Positions 977 through 10,770 of a DNA stretch of 30,665 nucleotides are shown here, piece by piece (position 1 is the first letter of the stretch; the number at the start of each line of letters is the position of its first letter). Below the pieces are notes generated by a model, which was not told the DNA's origin, did no database searches, and was given only the letters and a program-made list of their open reading frames with translations. Both the position numbers and the translations under genes were made by a program. The DNA comes from a virus, in the IMG/VR virus record IMGVR_UViG_3300025646_000211, positions 1 through 30,665 of that record. One strand, given 5' to 3'.

Positions 977-2503
977 GTGCCTTCATATCTTCATCTTGCT
1001 TATCGACGCAATGCACGGGCAGCAGCAAAAAACTTTGCTGTTACTAAAGCTAGCGATACAAAAGCAGTTGAAAAAGCACGATCTGATTTTGGTTTTTTCT
1101 GTGAATATGTAGCTAATAAACCTCCAGCAGCACACCATAAAGAATGGCATCGGCATTTTGTTACAAATGAAGACAGTACATGTCTTAAAGCAATAGCTGG
1201 ACCAAACATTGACTTGTTAGGCCCCAGGGGCTCTGCAAAATCAACTGTACTTGGCTTGTTTACTGCTTGGGCTATAGGAATTCATACGACTGCAAAGATG
1301 CCATTGCAGATTCTATATCTTTCTTATACGGTCGAAATTGCGCGGCCAAAATCAGCTGCTATCAAAAGAATTATTGAAAGCCGTAAATATCAAGAAGTTT
1401 TTCCAAAAGTTCGTTTACTAAAAAATGTAACCAGTAATGAATACTGGTCAATCGATCACAAATTCGCAGGTATTGATACGGTTGGTGATGAAATGTTTAC
1501 TCTTTGTGCAGCTGGCCTTAAAGGTTCAGTGACTTCAAAGCGTTCTCATCTTGTTATTATTGATGACTGCATTAAAAGTGCTTCTGATATTGCTAATCCA
1601 GATATTAGAAAATCAATGGACGATAACTGGAATGCAGTTATTGCGCCAACTATGTTTGAAGGCGGTAGAGCAATTTGTTTAGGAACTAGATTTAGGCATG
1701 ATGATATTCATGCAACTACATTTAACGAACAAAACAATTGGAGGCAAATTGTTTTATCTGCCATTGGAACAGATCCCAAAACGGGAGAAGAGATTTCTTA
1801 TTGGCCTGAAATGTGGTCATTGGATTATTTAAAAGAAAAAAAACGACAAGCTCCTGTTGCTTTTTCTTTTCAATACATGAATCAAATTGTCAGAGTTGGA
1901 GAATTATCTCTTGCTCCTGAGCTAATTGTAAAAGCTGAAATTGCAACAGAATTTGATACATTAGGCGTGGGCATTGACTTGTCAGCCGGTATGAAAGAAA
2001 AAAATGATTACACAGTAATGGTTTTAGGTGGAAGAATTGATGATCGTATTCATATTATTGATTATCGAAGACTAAGGGTGATGGGTAATATTGATAAATT
2101 AAATGCTTTAAAAGAACTATTAAATGATTGGTCAATTATTGGTTTAGATGAAAATCAAAATTATTATCCAACTTATTCTAATTGTGATATTTGGTCAGAA
2201 GCTGTGCAGTATCAAGCTTCCTTAGAAGCTGATTTTAAAAGAATCTGTTTAAATGATGAAGGACTTTATAATCTTATTTGGCATCCAGTTAAAGGTTTCC
2301 GCGCTGATAAACTAGCAAGATTTAGAGGAATTATAGGAATGTTTGAAGAAAGAAAAATTATTTTCAATAGATTTAGAAATTTTACACATCTTTTTGAAGA
2401 GCTTACTAATTTTGGTGTTAGCAGCCATGACGATTGCGTGGATGCTTTGGTTTGGTTAGTTAATGGCTTGTCTAGAAAAGGAAAATTGCATTTGGATTAT
2501 TGA
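977..2503 (+). CDS. terL: Terminase large subunit (DNA-packaging ATPase/nuclease)
   Basis: This 508-residue protein is the motor that pumps DNA into the prohead through the portal and cuts the concatemer. The N-terminal ATPase has a Walker A loop at residues 82-90 (GPRGSAKST) and a Walker B strand at 192-197 (LVIIDD), followed by an arginine-rich GTRFRHDD segment at 236-243. The C-terminal RNase-H-like nuclease shows Asp334 in GIDLS, an acidic pair Asp391-Glu392 and Asp486-Asp487 in SHDDCVDAL, matching the usual three-acid pattern. The start is GTG with little Shine-Dalgarno signal; the length is normal for the family. No small terminase subunit is recognisable beside it in this window. Confidence 0.95.
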   Translation: MPSYLHLAYRRNARAAAKNFAVTKASDTKAVEKARSDFGFFCEYVANKPPAAHHKEWHRHFVTNEDSTCLKAIAGPNIDLLGPRGSAKSTVLGLFTAWAIGIHTTAKMPLQILYLSYTVEIARPKSAAIKRIIESRKYQEVFPKVRLLKNVTSNEYWSIDHKFAGIDTVGDEMFTLCAAGLKGSVTSKRSHLVIIDDCIKSASDIANPDIRKSMDDNWNAVIAPTMFEGGRAICLGTRFRHDDIHATTFNEQNNWRQIVLSAIGTDPKTGEEISYWPEMWSLDYLKEKKRQAPVAFSFQYMNQIVRVGELSLAPELIVKAEIATEFDTLGVGIDLSAGMKEKNDYTVMVLGGRIDDRIHIIDYRRLRVMGNIDKLNALKELLNDWSIIGLDENQNYYPTYSNCDIWSEAVQYQASLEADFKRICLNDEGLYNLIWHPVKGFRADKLARFRGIIGMFEERKIIFNRFRNFTHLFEELTNFGVSSHDDCVDALVWLVNGLSRKGKLHLDY

Positions 2504-4896: not shown

Positions 4897-7239
4897 GTGG
4901 ACGCAAAAAACAGATTACAAGAAATTGTTAACGCTTATCTTGAAAAAGATGGTGGCGACAATATAGATACAGGTATTGTTGCGTCTCATATCGCTCAAAT
5001 GAAATTATTTGGCATCCGTCAGGGTGTTGAATTTTTTCCAAGTCAAGATAATTTTGGAAACCAAAGAAAAGACTTTTTAGATCGTGTTGCAAAATACAAC
5101 AAGCTAGACACAAGGCTAGATTCTATTTGGGAATATTTTTTATGTGACGGACAAGGCATCTTTTATATTAGGCCAACAGAAAAAAATTATCGTTTATATT
5201 ATTTTAGAAAACATGAGTACCGTTCTTACTACGGAACGGACGGAGAGCTTGATGAAGTTGTAATCATTTATAGCTATAAAGTAAAAGAAGGCACTGGTTT
5301 TAATCAAAATGTAAATATATCTGAAATATCAGGTGCAAATTATTTAAATGCACAAGGAGCTAAAAAATATATTCGTTTGACTATTAAAGCTAATGAAATA
5401 GAAGAATTGCATAGTGATGGAGAATTGTCTTTTGATATGCCAGTTACTGCTGCGCCAGGGCAAACCAAAGTTTTTAAAAACACATTAGGTTTTATTCCTT
5501 GTGTTGAAATTTTAAACAATCCTAAAGGTTTTTCTAATGAAGGTGTAGGAGAGTTTGATGCATTAGCTAACCACATCATTATTCATGATGAAATGGTTAA
5601 GACGATGCGAAAAAATGTTCAGTTTTTTGGTAATCCTACTTTACTTTCTTCTAGGCCAAAAACAGATTTAATAGAATCTGGTTCTGATGGTGGTGCAGTT
5701 CAAAGACCATCTATTGCAGCTAATTCAGGTTTTAGTGGTCTAGGTCCTTTAAGCCAATCTAAATTTAAAGCTGATCCTATTTATAGAGGTGGTGTAGATG
5801 GACAAATTCGTGTTCCTAGAGTTATTGCTAATTTAGAACCCAATGATCGAGTTGGCTATATTGTTCCTGATGCAATTACAGGTGATCAAAATGTATTTGC
5901 TAGACAATATCGAGAAGAAATTAGAACATCTTTAGGCGGCGTAGACGAGTTATCAATTTCTGCAAGTGTAACAGCAACTGAATATAAATCTATATTTGGT
6001 CGAGTTGCTGCAACCGCTAAGAAAAAATCAAATGCTATTTATGAGCATGGTCTTTGCCGTTGTTTAGAATTAATTATTTTTCAAGAAGAAAAATTATTTA
6101 GAGACACCCTTGCTGCTGCTGTCGGAATTGAAAAACCAATTGATTTGCCGCCCGATTCAAGTGAAGAAGCAAAAAGATTATATGCAGAAGCAATGCAAAT
6201 GTTTAACGATAGAGTTGAACAAATTATGATTGCTTGTGTCAAGACACAACTGATTCCACCAGGAGTTAAAGGTTTAGTTCCTGATGGAGATGTTACAGTT
6301 TTATGGAGATGGCTTGGACCTGTCTACGAAGACACAACTCAAGATATTCTTAATAATTCAATCGTTGTTCGTAACTTACAAGAATTAGGTGTTGATAGTA
6401 TTGAAGCACTGAAATACCTCTTTCCTGCTAAAACGGATGAGGAGCGGGCCGCGATGTTATCGGGGTTCCCATTCAGAATGGTGAACGAATTGCAGGGTGC
6501 TTACTCTGCATTTGCTCGCTTAGTAGGGGGAATGATGCAGACTCCCCACCCGCAGTCACCAGATCTTCCAATGGCTGCGGACCCCAGATTGGATTTAACA
6601 CCATATCTGTATCGAACTCTAGAAGCGTTACAAAAGGAGATGAGTTATGCAGGACGCTACCGTCCAATCGATCCCACAGACGAGCCCGAGCGTGGCACCC
6701 AGCCAGTACGCCGCACCCGCCCCGCAGCAGGCTCCTCAGGGACCGATCAATTATCAAGTCGGAACGCAATATCCGCAGGCAGTACCCGCCCCAGCTCAGG
6801 CGGTTACCAGTTACCAATCCAGCCCTACTCAGTACGCCCCCCAATCCCAACCGGGCAGCAACAACCCCTGGGAATCGGCGTTCAACCGGGTGGTGGGGCT
6901 CCTGAGCAGTCCAGTCCAATCCCCATTCCAGGCAGCACCCTCAGCGCCGACAACGTACAGTCCGGCCAATTACGGAACCAGCAACCCAGGTACGCCGAGT
7001 TGGGCGACGCAGACCTCGCAAGCCAACCCGACATTCTCGCCCAGCTCTTCCCAAACCTCCTCGCCGGAGCACTTGGCGCAGGTCGCGGACTCGCTGAATC
7101 TGAGTCCAGAAAGCCGCCAGGTGGTAGAAGCGTACGGGGTCGAGGCCCCAGCGGTACTAAACCAGTACGCCCTCCAACTGGAAGAGATGGTAGACAGCGC
7201 CCTGGCATGGGGCCAAAAGGCAAACGAGGTACTAACTAA
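4897..7239 (+). CDS. Portal protein with a 197-residue dual-coded C-terminal tail
   Basis: This protein of 780 residues starts at GTG. The portal is the dodecameric ring at one capsid vertex through which terminase pumps DNA and to which the tail attaches. Residues 1-560 have the portal pattern: an N-terminal helical part, a beta-rich wing (DGQGIFYIRP, then FRKHEYRSYYGTDGELDEVV), a long central helix region (VTATEYKSIFGRVAATAKKK) and a clip/stem. From residue 584 the chain becomes Pro/Gly/Ser/Arg rich and probably disordered. This part is encoded by DNA that also encodes the N-terminus of the scaffolding protein in the +1 frame. Base composition jumps in this part. Confidence 0.9.
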   Translation: MDAKNRLQEIVNAYLEKDGGDNIDTGIVASHIAQMKLFGIRQGVEFFPSQDNFGNQRKDFLDRVAKYNKLDTRLDSIWEYFLCDGQGIFYIRPTEKNYRLYYFRKHEYRSYYGTDGELDEVVIIYSYKVKEGTGFNQNVNISEISGANYLNAQGAKKYIRLTIKANEIEELHSDGELSFDMPVTAAPGQTKVFKNTLGFIPCVEILNNPKGFSNEGVGEFDALANHIIIHDEMVKTMRKNVQFFGNPTLLSSRPKTDLIESGSDGGAVQRPSIAANSGFSGLGPLSQSKFKADPIYRGGVDGQIRVPRVIANLEPNDRVGYIVPDAITGDQNVFARQYREEIRTSLGGVDELSISASVTATEYKSIFGRVAATAKKKSNAIYEHGLCRCLELIIFQEEKLFRDTLAAAVGIEKPIDLPPDSSEEAKRLYAEAMQMFNDRVEQIMIACVKTQLIPPGVKGLVPDGDVTVLWRWLGPVYEDTTQDILNNSIVVRNLQELGVDSIEALKYLFPAKTDEERAAMLSGFPFRMVNELQGAYSAFARLVGGMMQTPHPQSPDLPMAADPRLDLTPYLYRTLEALQKEMSYAGRYRPIDPTDEPERGTQPVRRTRPAAGSSGTDQLSSRNAISAGSTRPSSGGYQLPIQPYSVRPPIPTGQQQPLGIGVQPGGGAPEQSSPIPIPGSTLSADNVQSGQLRNQQPRYAELGDADLASQPDILAQLFPNLLAGALGAGRGLAESESRKPPGGRSVRGRGPSGTKPVRPPTGRDGRQRPGMGPKGKRGTN
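6634..6639 (+). promoter_or_regulatory. Strong Shine-Dalgarno for the internal scaffold start
   Basis: AAGGAG at 6634-6639 lies 7 nt before ATG 6647, inside the portal frame. It is one of the best ribosome sites in the window and decides the scaffold start. Confidence 0.8.
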
Positions 7240-7660
7240 TTGGGCTGCGTTTGGTGTTAACGAGCACGTTGAAAGTACTGCAAAAAGCATGCTTTTAAAT
7301 CGTTACGCTCAGTTTGCAGTTAACGAGCACAGTGAAAATCTTGCTTATAACGAGATTTTAACCAATCCTGATACCCTCAGCGATTACACTTTAAAATTCT
7401 TCGGGCCTGAAGGTCCTTGCCCTGTGTATGAAAACGAGGGTGAATTAGAAACCCCCGGTTATCGTACCGCTCCTGTAAATACTGGAGAAATGGCGCAGTT
7501 CCCTGCTCCTCCCGCAGTTGCACAAAATGCTCCTCAACATCCCCAGAATTTCTGGAATACCTTTAGTGAGCAAATGACCAAAGATCCTCAGCAAGCCTGG
7601 AGAATTCTTAATCAAGCTCAGCCTAATACTGTTGCTAACAAATTGTTTGTAATGGAGTGA
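6647..7660 (+). CDS. Scaffolding protein, start nested in portal gene
   Basis: The protein has 337 residues. Scaffold proteins nucleate capsid assembly and leave before DNA enters. Position between portal and capsid genes, size and composition fit. Residues 1-145 are Pro/Gln/Ser/Ala rich and low complexity; residues about 145-250 are strongly helical (VVEAYGVEAPAVLNQYALQL and on); the C-terminus is amphipathic and ends VANKLFVME. A 21-residue internal repeat begins with GVNEH (about 204) and AVNEH (about 225). The first 593 nt overlap the portal frame. Codons are GC-rich there and revert to the AT-rich phage style exactly after the portal stop at 7239, as expected if the shared segment is doubly constrained. 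Confidence 0.85.
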   Translation: MQDATVQSIPQTSPSVAPSQYAAPAPQQAPQGPINYQVGTQYPQAVPAPAQAVTSYQSSPTQYAPQSQPGSNNPWESAFNRVVGLLSSPVQSPFQAAPSAPTTYSPANYGTSNPGTPSWATQTSQANPTFSPSSSQTSSPEHLAQVADSLNLSPESRQVVEAYGVEAPAVLNQYALQLEEMVDSALAWGQKANEVLTNWAAFGVNEHVESTAKSMLLNRYAQFAVNEHSENLAYNEILTNPDTLSDYTLKFFGPEGPCPVYENEGELETPGYRTAPVNTGEMAQFPAPPAVAQNAPQHPQNFWNTFSEQMTKDPQQAWRILNQAQPNTVANKLFVME

Positions 7661-7664
7661 GGTT

Positions 7665-8219
7665 ATGCGCGGCCTACTTAAATATGGTATTCCAGCTGCT
7701 GCAGGTATAGGTACAACGGGCTACGCTTTAATGCAAGGCGAAGATCTTGGTTCTGCACTTTTAGCGGGCGCAGCTGGCACATTAGGTGGCGCAGCCGGTT
7801 TACTTGGAGCCAGAAAACTTGCTGGTAAATACGCTCCTGCTCTACAAGATGCAAGAGAAAATGCAACTGAAAAAATTCTTCAAGGCGGAATAAGACTTGA
7901 AGATATGGTTGGAAATTTACCAGCAACTAGAGAAAAAGGCATTAGAGCAACAACTGGCAGGGCATTAGCTAATCAAGCAGTTAATGTTGCTAATCAAATT
8001 GCTCAAATGAATTTAGGTGAAAGAGCAGTTGGCAAAGGTATTGCAGGCATGGCAGTTCCGGCATCAGCACTTGTTGCTGGTTTAGGAGGTGTCGCTGCAG
8101 GTGCTATTCCAGGTTCATTAGGTGTACCTGGATTCCAACAGTCTATTGATCCTGAAAATTACGGTTCAAGTAACACTATGGGTGCAAGAGCTGCCCAAAC
8201 AACGCTAGGCTATTACTAA
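7665..8219 (+). CDS. Glycine-zipper hydrophobic protein, putative head/ejection component
   Basis: This 184-residue protein has ATG 7665 preceded by GGAGTGAGG four bases before. Three Gly/Ala-rich hydrophobic stretches (residues about 8-22, 28-48 and 128-155, the last GIAGMAVPASALVAGLGGVA) have glycine-zipper spacing. They flank a polar helical middle with LPATREKGIRATTGRALANQ. Such segments often insert into membranes or pack in oligomers. The gene lies between scaffold and major capsid genes, so an inner-capsid or DNA-ejection pore protein is a reasonable idea. No family is recognised. Confidence 0.75.
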   Translation: MRGLLKYGIPAAAGIGTTGYALMQGEDLGSALLAGAAGTLGGAAGLLGARKLAGKYAPALQDARENATEKILQGGIRLEDMVGNLPATREKGIRATTGRALANQAVNVANQIAQMNLGERAVGKGIAGMAVPASALVAGLGGVAAGAIPGSLGVPGFQQSIDPENYGSSNTMGARAAQTTLGYY

Positions 8220-8313: not shown

Positions 8314-9480
8314 GTGTTCATTGATAACGATTTCCCCAAAATTCTAGGTGCGGAGCTATATCGTCCCCACCCGGCTTATATCTGTGAAATGGCCGTTGAG
8401 CCGGTTGTGGTTCACGACTTCTCACGTCAACCCGGTCAAACCGTTCAATTAGATCGCTACAAGTTCTGGGGTGCTCCCGGCACTAAAGATAGCCGTGAAC
8501 GTATTGCTGACCAAACTATCGGTACTGCTAATAGCCGTAACATTACTAAAGAAAAAGTCCTGGTTGTGCTGAAAGAGTACACCGGTCCTGCAGATCCGGG
8601 TGATCCCACTCAACCTTCGACTTTTAAAATTGCTCGTGAAACTCTGATTACCGCTCAGCGTCTGCTGCTGGACACCGGTAATCTGAATATGTTCCACCAG
8701 TCCATCGGTTCTCTGACACTGTTGGATGACTATCGTCGTTGGCGTGATCGCGTCTTCATTGACGAACTGGCCAAAGCCGAAGCCAATGGTGCTGCTTCAA
8801 CCAGCCAAGGCGGTTACTATTTTGCTGGCGGCAAAACCAAAGATTCTTCCGGTCGTGTTTCTTACACTGCCACTGAATATGCTGCTCAAACCCAGCAGTT
8901 CTCTGTGCGCACTGACCTGCTGAATGTTGTTAAGGATCTGCGTAAGCGCAACGTTCCTACCTTCTCTGATGGTATGTATCGTTGCATCTGCGATCCCGTC
9001 TTTATGCTGCACCTGCGTCGCGATCCCGACTTCCGTGAGATTGCTCGTTATGCAGGCAATCCCGGCCAAGGCATGTACATGGGCGGCAACCCCATGATGC
9101 CTAACAACTCCAGCTTCTACATGGGTCCTCAGGCTGGCCAAGGTTATTTCCTGGCTGGCGAACCTGTGATGCCTACTGGTGTCCAATTTGAAGGTGTTAA
9201 ATTCTTCGAATCTACCAACTTCCCGACCAAGAATATCACTGCTTCCTTCGATGAGGGCAGCACATATTCTTCCCAAGAAGTCGCCCAAGGTTTCTTCTTT
9301 GGTCCTCAATCGGTTGGCGTTGGCGTTGGCGGTCCTAATGCTCAGGTTCTCATCAACAATAACGATGACTTTAGCCGTTTCATCATCCTGATCTGGCAAC
9401 TTTACGCTGGTTTTGAAATTCTAAATAAGGATTTCGTTACCACTGGTTTCAGCTTTGTGGCTGATGACGGCATACTTTGA
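8314..9480 (+). CDS. Major capsid protein, HK97-fold, N4 gp56-like
   Basis: This protein of 388 residues starts at GTG 8314, with GGAGG about ten bases upstream. It forms the icosahedral shell. Features that fit the N4-gp56-type capsid family are the N-terminal FSRQPGQTVQLDRYKFWG segment, a spine-helix region with TLITAQRLLLDTGNL, and a C-terminal domain with CICDPVFMLHLRRDPDFREI and a Gly/Met/Asn-rich loop (MGGNPMMPNNSSFYMG). The codon choice is clearly more GC-rich (for example Ctg, Cgt, ggC) than in its neighbours; a hand count for 8641-8700 gives 31 of 60 G+C. This is the usual sign of very high expression. It lies directly downstream of the scaffold and glycine-zipper genes. Confidence 0.88.
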   Translation: MFIDNDFPKILGAELYRPHPAYICEMAVEPVVVHDFSRQPGQTVQLDRYKFWGAPGTKDSRERIADQTIGTANSRNITKEKVLVVLKEYTGPADPGDPTQPSTFKIARETLITAQRLLLDTGNLNMFHQSIGSLTLLDDYRRWRDRVFIDELAKAEANGAASTSQGGYYFAGGKTKDSSGRVSYTATEYAAQTQQFSVRTDLLNVVKDLRKRNVPTFSDGMYRCICDPVFMLHLRRDPDFREIARYAGNPGQGMYMGGNPMMPNNSSFYMGPQAGQGYFLAGEPVMPTGVQFEGVKFFESTNFPTKNITASFDEGSTYSSQEVAQGFFFGPQSVGVGVGGPNAQVLINNNDDFSRFIILIWQLYAGFEILNKDFVTTGFSFVADDGIL

Positions 9481-9511: not shown

Positions 9512-10309
9512 ATGAGCTACCTGTCCACTAAAAGAATTTACCCTGGTAACTGGGTAGAAGCACTCAATGGTTGGTATAAAAACATTGATACCAACGATGA
9601 CGGCACAAACAACGCTTCCAAGGGCGGCCCTACTTCCGTTTTAGCTACCCCTGGTTATCGTTACTATCAACAAAGAGGCTATGTTGAAGTAGCTGTTGCT
9701 TCAGGCAACGCTATTACAACTGGCGATGTAATCGTTCCTTCTCCTTATAGAAACGACGATACCCGTCCTGATATCACCGGTATGGTGATCTCTGGCAGCA
9801 GCACTCAACCTGCTTACGTTTACCGCACCGCAATCTCCGTAGCCCAAGGCTGGAATGATGGCCGTGTTTCTTCAGGTGTGTACGCAGCTACTGGTAACGT
9901 TATTTCTTTTGGTCGTGATTCCAGTGGCCCTACTGCTGCCTCTGGGGTTGGCGAGGGTGTGATTCAGGCTAACCTGACCTCTACTGTTTCTGGCGATGCT
10001 GCCACGAAGATTTTCTTCTCAGGTACTTCCCAAGCTTTCGGCACTCATCCTTTCCTGACCGCAACCGGTGCAACTGGTGTGGCCCCTGGCAAGGTTCATT
10101 ACGAAGCAACTAATGCGACCACGATGAAAGTGTTTGCAAAAGGCACTGCCAATGCAACTACTACCTCCGGTGGTTTCTACATCTCTGATGCTGATTACAA
10201 TGCAGGCTTAAAAGGTTATCTGCTTGTAGAAATCTGCTACATTGTTCCTGACAATGCACCGGATTACTCAGATCTTGAAGAATATTTAGCTAATCGAGTT
10301 GTATCCTGA
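9512..10309 (+). CDS. Abundant virion protein, candidate capsid decoration protein
   Basis: The protein has 265 residues, with ATG 9512 preceded by AGGAGA at 9501-9506. It is rich in Gly/Thr/Ser/Ala and beta-prone, with no catalytic motif. Codon use is GC-rich like that of the capsid gene and unlike the rest of the window, which suggests it is also made in large amounts. It follows the capsid gene with only a 31-nt gap. Capsid cement/decoration protein or a second shell protein is my first choice; a tail-tube subunit is the alternative. The family is not recognised with certainty. Confidence 0.8.
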   Translation: MSYLSTKRIYPGNWVEALNGWYKNIDTNDDGTNNASKGGPTSVLATPGYRYYQQRGYVEVAVASGNAITTGDVIVPSPYRNDDTRPDITGMVISGSSTQPAYVYRTAISVAQGWNDGRVSSGVYAATGNVISFGRDSSGPTAASGVGEGVIQANLTSTVSGDAATKIFFSGTSQAFGTHPFLTATGATGVAPGKVHYEATNATTMKVFAKGTANATTTSGGFYISDADYNAGLKGYLLVEICYIVPDNAPDYSDLEEYLANRVVS

Positions 10310-10359: not shown

Positions 10360-10770
10360 ATGCTCTATCAACATATTAAAACAGGCGCTCGGGTTAGAGT
10401 TATTAGTGAGTTAGATGAAGGCGATTGGTTTCTGGTCGAAGACCAGGACGGTCGCCTTTCTCACGTTTATAAAACAGAATTAAAAGCAGATGAATCTGCA
10501 ACAAAAAAAGTTAAAACGTTGCAAGTAAAAGATAAAGCTTCAAAAGAAGAACCAAGGAATTTTCCACCTGATGTACGTTTAAACATTAACGGCGCAACCG
10601 CTCAAATGATTGCAGATCATATTAAAGGGATTGGTCTTAAAACAGCAAAAGAAATTAAAGACTTACAAATGAGTTTGCAAGGAGAAAAATTTACAACTCT
10701 TGAACAATTAAAGCAAGTAAAACGAGTGGATTGGGAAGCTGTTTTTGCTGCTGATTTAGTAAGAGTATAA
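10360..10770 (+). CDS. Helix-hairpin-helix protein with SH3-like N-terminus
   Basis: This 136-residue protein has two parts. Residues 1-42 look like a small beta barrel (GARVRVISELDEGDWFLVED, then HVYKTEL) of SH3/KOW style. A Lys/Asp-rich linker (45-68) leads to residues 70-125, with NINGATAQMIADHIKGIG, then LKTAKEIKDL and TLEQLKQVKRVDW. That part matches the ComEA-type double helix-hairpin-helix, which binds DNA backbone without sequence specificity through the GIG turn. A DNA-contacting head-completion or connector component would fit the position after capsid genes; that role is inference. The ATG is inside a short hairpin-containing leader. Confidence 0.7.
   Translation: MLYQHIKTGARVRVISELDEGDWFLVEDQDGRLSHVYKTELKADESATKKVKTLQVKDKASKEEPRNFPPDVRLNINGATAQMIADHIKGIGLKTAKEIKDLQMSLQGEKFTTLEQLKQVKRVDWEAVFAADLVRV

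Follow-up and report, generated by a model that had tools for sequence, protein, structure and literature searches.

The window, by which we mean the whole stretch of 30,665 nt analysed here, comprises positions 1–30,665 of the IMG/VR virus record IMGVR_UViG_3300025646_000211. By sequence it is related to Synechococcus phage S-EIV1, the sole cultured phage among 50,697 records that matched the portal, putative scaffold and capsid proteins over their length (72% identity for the portal, 56% over the full length of the putative scaffold and 83% for the capsid). Scans of IMG/VR yielded at least 343 confirmed stretches from relatives, and the S-EIV1-like lineage is therefore common. The genes and elements at the locus are as follows:

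977–2503, plus strand: terminase large subunit (TerL; phrog_38, E 5e-76; PF17289)
4897–7239, plus strand: portal protein gene, 780 aa, GTG start; core at residues 1 to ~597, C-terminal extension at ~598–780
6394–6584, plus strand: conserved RNA structure of 53 pairs, within the portal gene (consensus fold, shuffles, held-out test)
6606–6680, plus strand: invariant possible stem, 6606–6614 with 6669–6680, enclosing the Shine-Dalgarno sequence (SD) and ATG of the putative scaffold
6634–6649, plus strand: AAGGAG (6634–6639), 7-nt spacer and ATG of the putative scaffold
6647–7239, plus strand: portal/putative scaffold overlap, 593 nt, the scaffold in the +1 frame of the portal
6647–7660, plus strand: putative scaffold gene, 337 aa, ATG start; disordered N-terminus, helical middle, C-terminal helix-turn-helix
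7665–8219, plus strand: Ala/Gly-rich ORF of 184 aa between the putative scaffold and capsid genes
8314–9480, plus strand: major capsid protein (MCP; phrog_1357 major head protein, E 5e-17)

The portal ORF matched phrog_20475 (head and packaging, E 1.3e-269), a family that carries only the name virion structural protein, and phrog_64 (portal, E 0.003). Its position between TerL and MCP and the gene order fit a portal; no PDB match was found, and its AF2 model was poor (pLDDT 38). The putative scaffold had no relative in PHROG, Pfam or PDB, and we have named it from its place between the portal and MCP genes. In its AF2 model (overall pLDDT 53), a short helix at residues 74–87 is followed by helices at 140–252 and 302–330, with the helix-turn-helix at 302–330 better supported (pLDDT 78–87) and the predicted helix 166–201 crossing the position of the portal stop. 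Residues 1–71 and 88–139 had a pLDDT below 50, which bears out the earlier note's suggestion that disorder makes double coding tolerable. A T7-like homology of the two proteins was rejected, as neither showed profile similarity to the P-SSP7 proteins (for the putative scaffold against gp9, hhalign gave a probability of 0.2%).

Several observations concern the genes downstream. GC3 was 0.48 in the capsid gene (8314–9480), 0.13–0.25 in most genes of the window and intermediate (0.39) in the gene at 9512–10309; the raised value of the capsid gene perhaps reflects the codon adaptation of highly expressed genes. The 184-aa gene at 7665–8219 had no match in PHROG or Pfam. Its synonymous divergence is lowered at both ends, to 0.55 of the gene mean over the first 20 codons and 0.58 over the last 20 (12 pairs), and an additional regulatory site in this gene is possible. 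In the gene at 9512–10309, synonymous divergence also dips in the last codons (10249–10309; 0.62 times the mean of that gene, in a final partial window), shortly before the gene at 10360–10770.

The overlap of 593 nt, described in the earlier note as open in both frames and preceded by AAGGAG exactly 7 nt before the putative scaffold ATG, was confirmed in both respects, the ORFs giving 197 codons in each frame. Upstream of the ATG, the putative scaffold frame is closed by an in-frame TGA (6641–6643). When the amino acids were fixed and codons were redrawn from genome usage, the other frame was open in none of 5000 sequences; shuffling the overlap's own codons left it open in 2.4% and 0.9%. The overlap therefore exceeds chance, and the codon choice within it is atypical in both frames.

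All but one of the 197 distinct relatives retain both the start signal, ACAAAAGGAGATGAGTTATG, and the overlap. All 73 first-examined sequences with the portal stop inside the contig had the start signal ACAAAAGGAGATGAGYTATGC and an overlap of 524–641 nt, and the median overlap was 592 nt among the 172 distinct relatives with both stops inside the contig; the position of the portal stop differs between relatives. The one contig without the overlap (L092) was not accepted as a true exception, since both genes are broken repeatedly in what appears to be an error-rich, frameshift-ridden sequence. An early portal stop was sought in the 196 credible relatives, and none occurred over 500 nt except in L143, where it lies about 10 nt from the contig end. 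No outgroup lacking the overlap was found: the viral-contig matches listed were close relatives, the genome scan gave two close relatives, and the phage records held S-EIV1 alone. The minus-strand ORFs at 6473–6919, 6882–7223 and 6970–7290 were set aside as well; over the scanned interval 6227–6707, no minus-strand ORF is common to all relatives, and the three are regarded as by-products of GC-rich sequence.

The hand counts of the earlier note were exact (G+C 42/60 at 6661–6720 and 25/60 at 7261–7320), but the GC-rich style that it had assigned to the scaffold frame begins near 6400, in the non-overlapping portal gene, and not at the overlap. G+C was 16/60 at 6341–6400 and then 29, 31 and 35 per 60; the shift precedes the overlap by about 250 nt and coincides with the conserved RNA structure.

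Portal synonymous divergence falls from about codon 491–495, some 265 nt before the putative scaffold ATG, with an observed-to-expected ratio of 0.27–0.66 across portal codons 491–580. A third gene beneath this stretch was rejected, because none of the other frames stays open across 240 nt in every relative (0 of 69 for the scaffold frame and for the portal +2 frame, 16 of 69 for the best minus-strand frame). The consensus structure at 6394–6584 had 99.0% of cells paired; variation within the pairs was mostly one-sided among G-U, G-C and A-U, and double-sided compensatory changes amounted to two pairs. All 41 aligned sequences folded more stably than synonymous shuffles that kept codon composition (mean z −2.5). 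Exchanging codons, column by column, between sequences that share the amino acid gave weaker support: the energy z was −1.6 over the full element, −2.5 in its 3′ half and +0.8 in its 5′ half. In a held-out set of 42 sequences, none of which reached 94% identity to a sequence used for the structure, 93.4% of the pairs were kept vs 73.0% in synonymous redraws, 430 of the 575 changed pairs still paired vs 206 expected, and the mean fold z was −3.4 in the 30 folded. These comparisons demonstrate an RNA structure conserved beyond the protein constraint. Searched with a covariance model built from its 3′ half, 10 lineage records each showed a single copy per genome and P-SSP7 and phiKX1 showed none, and no Rfam 15 family exceeded its gathering score in the window (the best was chrB-b, 24.2 bits vs 36.5).

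The possible stem at 6606–6680, which encloses the start signal, has almost no variation to inform covariation, and 98.8% of its pairs were kept in the held-out sequences. The putative scaffold SD itself has moderate to good accessibility (0.59–0.71 unpaired), and simple sequestration of the start was rejected for that reason. The RNA element points to cis-regulation of putative scaffold expression. Since it leaves the SD unhidden, we favor the view that it would act on mRNA processing, mRNA stability or ribosome traffic, to the benefit of scaffold and capsid over portal.

One specific form of this role, to which we give slightly less than even odds, is that the element is a site of RNase processing or a 5′ stabilizer, so that the scaffold and capsid mRNA outlives the portal mRNA and initiation is not the point of control. 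The long and irregular shape of the helix, with an accessible SD downstream of it, would suit such a site. It would also fit that scaffold and capsid are generally required in far more copies than portal. Processing is, however, indistinguishable from translational control at the level of sequence analysis.

An origin of the synonymous constraint at 6379–6640 in codons preferred for high expression, or in recombination among the relatives, appears improbable. GC3 does rise over this interval, as it does in the capsid gene. Against this stand the third positions that vary freely next to invariant ones, the re-pairing of changed pairs in held-out relatives at twice the expectation, and folding that beats shuffles of the same codon composition; moreover, no comparable synonymous block was found in TerL, MCP or the other genes with enough pairs.

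Selection in the overlap was estimated with our own implementation of an OLGenie-type count (PMC7531306), in which sites and differences are classed by what they do in each of the two frames, and under two sampling schemes. With pairs 2–12% apart, dN/dS over the overlap was 0.34 (0.22–0.52) for the portal and 0.16 (0.10–0.24) for the putative scaffold; with 58 disjoint pairs, the values were 0.48 (0.37–0.62) and 0.26 (0.20–0.32), respectively. A phantom-frame control in the portal core gave 0.54–0.73 and not 1, so that by itself the figure of 0.48 for the portal over the whole overlap counts as modest evidence, and the weight of the case for double coding falls on the values for individual segments. 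Divergence that is synonymous in the portal but changes the scaffold was 0.384 in the portal core and dropped to 0.057 within the overlap. Sites silent in both frames stayed fast (0.64, few sites), and a low mutation rate is therefore not the cause. Segments of the overlap include:

6863–6934, plus strand: scaffold-dominated segment NPWESAFNRVVGLLSSPVQSPFQA, scaffold residues 73–96; scaffold dN/dS 0.02 (0.00–0.05)
7009–7062, plus strand: portal-dominated segment, motif ADLASQPDILAQLFPNLL, over scaffold residues 120–139; portal dN/dS 0.09 (0.03–0.20)
7064–7239, plus strand: end of the portal tail, last ~57 codons (723–780); portal dN/dS 1.28 (0.90–1.90), scaffold 0.33

Constraint in the overlap is thus segregated, with conserved motifs of one protein lying over variable linkers of the other, and the conserved motifs are probably helical. 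The sequence comparisons show that both frames of the overlap are under selection and that the start signal is conserved. The earlier note's claim of dual coding holds in that purifying selection acts on both frames across the relatives, but it does not extend to the last ~57 portal codons. Because no selection on the portal frame was detected over 7064–7239 with the 58 disjoint pairs, the part of the overlap in which both frames code usefully shrinks to about 420 nt; beyond it, the portal tail looks as if it were passively read on to the next stop.

The question then arises whether the portal extension as a whole amounts to no more than passive readthrough, ended by the next stop, with the scaffold frame alone functional in the overlap. 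The unconstrained last ~57 codons and the variable stop position are in line with this explanation, and the portal core already has 597 aa without the extension, vs 522 residues in the P-SSP7 portal. In the four segments before 7064, however, portal dN/dS was 0.40, 0.22, 0.41 and 0.09, with intervals that exclude 1 in three of them; the portal motif ADLVSQPGILAQLFPNLL is conserved where the putative scaffold frame varies, and none of the credible relatives stops early over 500 nt. We therefore regard wholly passive readthrough as quite improbable.

The portal and putative scaffold of S-EIV1 (KJ410740) are encoded in the same gene order as in the window, with the same start signal and RNA element and an overlap of 554 nt. 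The portal is deposited as AHV82224, whereas the scaffold (AHV82225) is annotated only past the portal stop, at 59863–60264, so that the overlap is absent from the record; scaffold homology begins upstream, at 59287. It is highly improbable that the scaffold does start downstream of the portal stop, as deposited for this sole isolate, and that its N-terminal 197 codons are untranslated: scaffold-frame dN/dS was 0.26 (0.20–0.32) over the overlap and 0.02 at residues 73–96, the strong SD and ATG are present in 196 of 197 relatives, and the predicted helix 166–201 spans the portal stop.

Two other points of the S-EIV1 record were noted. Its terminase (L082 2538–5078) has an insertion of ~330 aa, at about residues 201–531, that is absent from the terminase of the window (977–2503); the insertion matches Pfam Intein_splicing (E 1.4e-12) and is therefore interpreted as an unannotated intein. 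At 60784–62010 of KJ410740 (L082 9242–10468), the capsid gene is annotated as a minus-strand ORF and a truncated plus-strand ORF, and tblastn placed the capsid at 60859–62007 on the plus strand; the major capsid gene of S-EIV1 is probably misannotated.

Programmed frameshifting to a portal–scaffold fusion, in place of or beside two separate proteins, would fit the +1 frame and the nearby RNA structure but is scarcely credible, as that structure lies upstream of the overlap and not a few nt 3′ of a slip site inside it, and as the scaffold has a dedicated SD and ATG after the in-frame TGA at 6641–6643. The earlier note suggested that nesting could couple the amounts of the two proteins; of such conjectural coupling, the classical form by termination and reinitiation is unlikely, the portal stop lying 593 nt downstream of the putative scaffold ATG.

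The reading that we prefer, with a probability of roughly 0.8, is that these S-EIV1-like cyanophages combine dual coding, an internally initiated putative scaffold and a cis-acting RNA element. The portal gene would run ~590 nt into the putative head scaffold gene in a different frame, and both products are presumably translated; a strong ribosome-binding site inside the portal gene, just past a stop in the scaffold frame, would give the putative scaffold an independent start. The portal would carry a long flexible C-terminal tail, selected mainly at residues 584–722 and with a conserved short helix-like motif, and the putative scaffold a flexible N-terminus that includes a single short, conserved helix; as constraint alternates along the overlap, the two proteins would seldom need the same bases. 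The ~190-nt RNA structure at 6394–6584 most likely acts in cis, raising or stabilizing scaffold and capsid expression relative to that of the portal. Of the two layers, the portal extension is probably the younger and would have arisen through the loss of an earlier stop, since the portal end is unselected and variable and the helical domain of the scaffold extends beyond the portal stop. A contact between the portal tail and the putative scaffold is a possibility.

Overlapping partner genes are known from other phages. In lambda and its relatives, the genes for the two-component spanins Rz and Rz1 overlap out of frame and are often missed by gene callers (PMC6139136). As in the window, these are functional partners of a dsDNA phage with the second gene in the +1 frame of the first; however, Rz and Rz1 are membrane proteins of lysis and not head proteins, and lambda Rz1 lies wholly within Rz. 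In phiX174, gene B, which encodes the internal scaffold, lies inside gene A in another frame. This is likewise a scaffold-type assembly gene lying out of frame over another gene, but in a small ssDNA phage and with a replication protein, not a portal, as the partner.

Reportedly, the segregation of overlapping genes was described for HIV by Fernandes et al. in 2016. In PMC8227390, which cites that study, functional segregation denotes constraint that alternates between frames, each stretch serving mainly one protein. The overlap analysed here shows the same alternation, in this case between two head genes of a tailed phage. P-SSP7 and T7-like phages have the order portal gp8, scaffold gp9 and capsid gp10 as in the window, but in P-SSP7 the overlap of gp8 with gp9 is a single nt (18253), profile similarity is not detectable and the RNA element is absent. 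An open-access literature search found no portal–scaffold overlaps.

Overall, the portal end, the out-of-frame scaffold start and the upstream RNA represent three layers that existing annotation misses. The overlap, absent from the annotation of the sole isolate, is kept through a lineage of at least several hundred IMG/VR contigs, and genome compression poorly explains a long out-of-frame overlap of two structural genes in a tailed phage of ~80 kb. It provides a clean natural case of segregated constraint, with a portal extension that partly lacks selection. The RNA element embedded in coding sequence may set the ratios of head proteins, and scans of synonymous sites in phage head operons can uncover such hidden elements. 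A bolder proposal, which we consider doubtful, is that about 1 kb holds three selected layers in which a new class of coding-embedded RNA sets the portal-to-scaffold ratio and the overprinted portal tail contacts the co-encoded scaffold. If this were true, head stoichiometry in these phages would be under the control of a nested cis-element and a built-in overlap.
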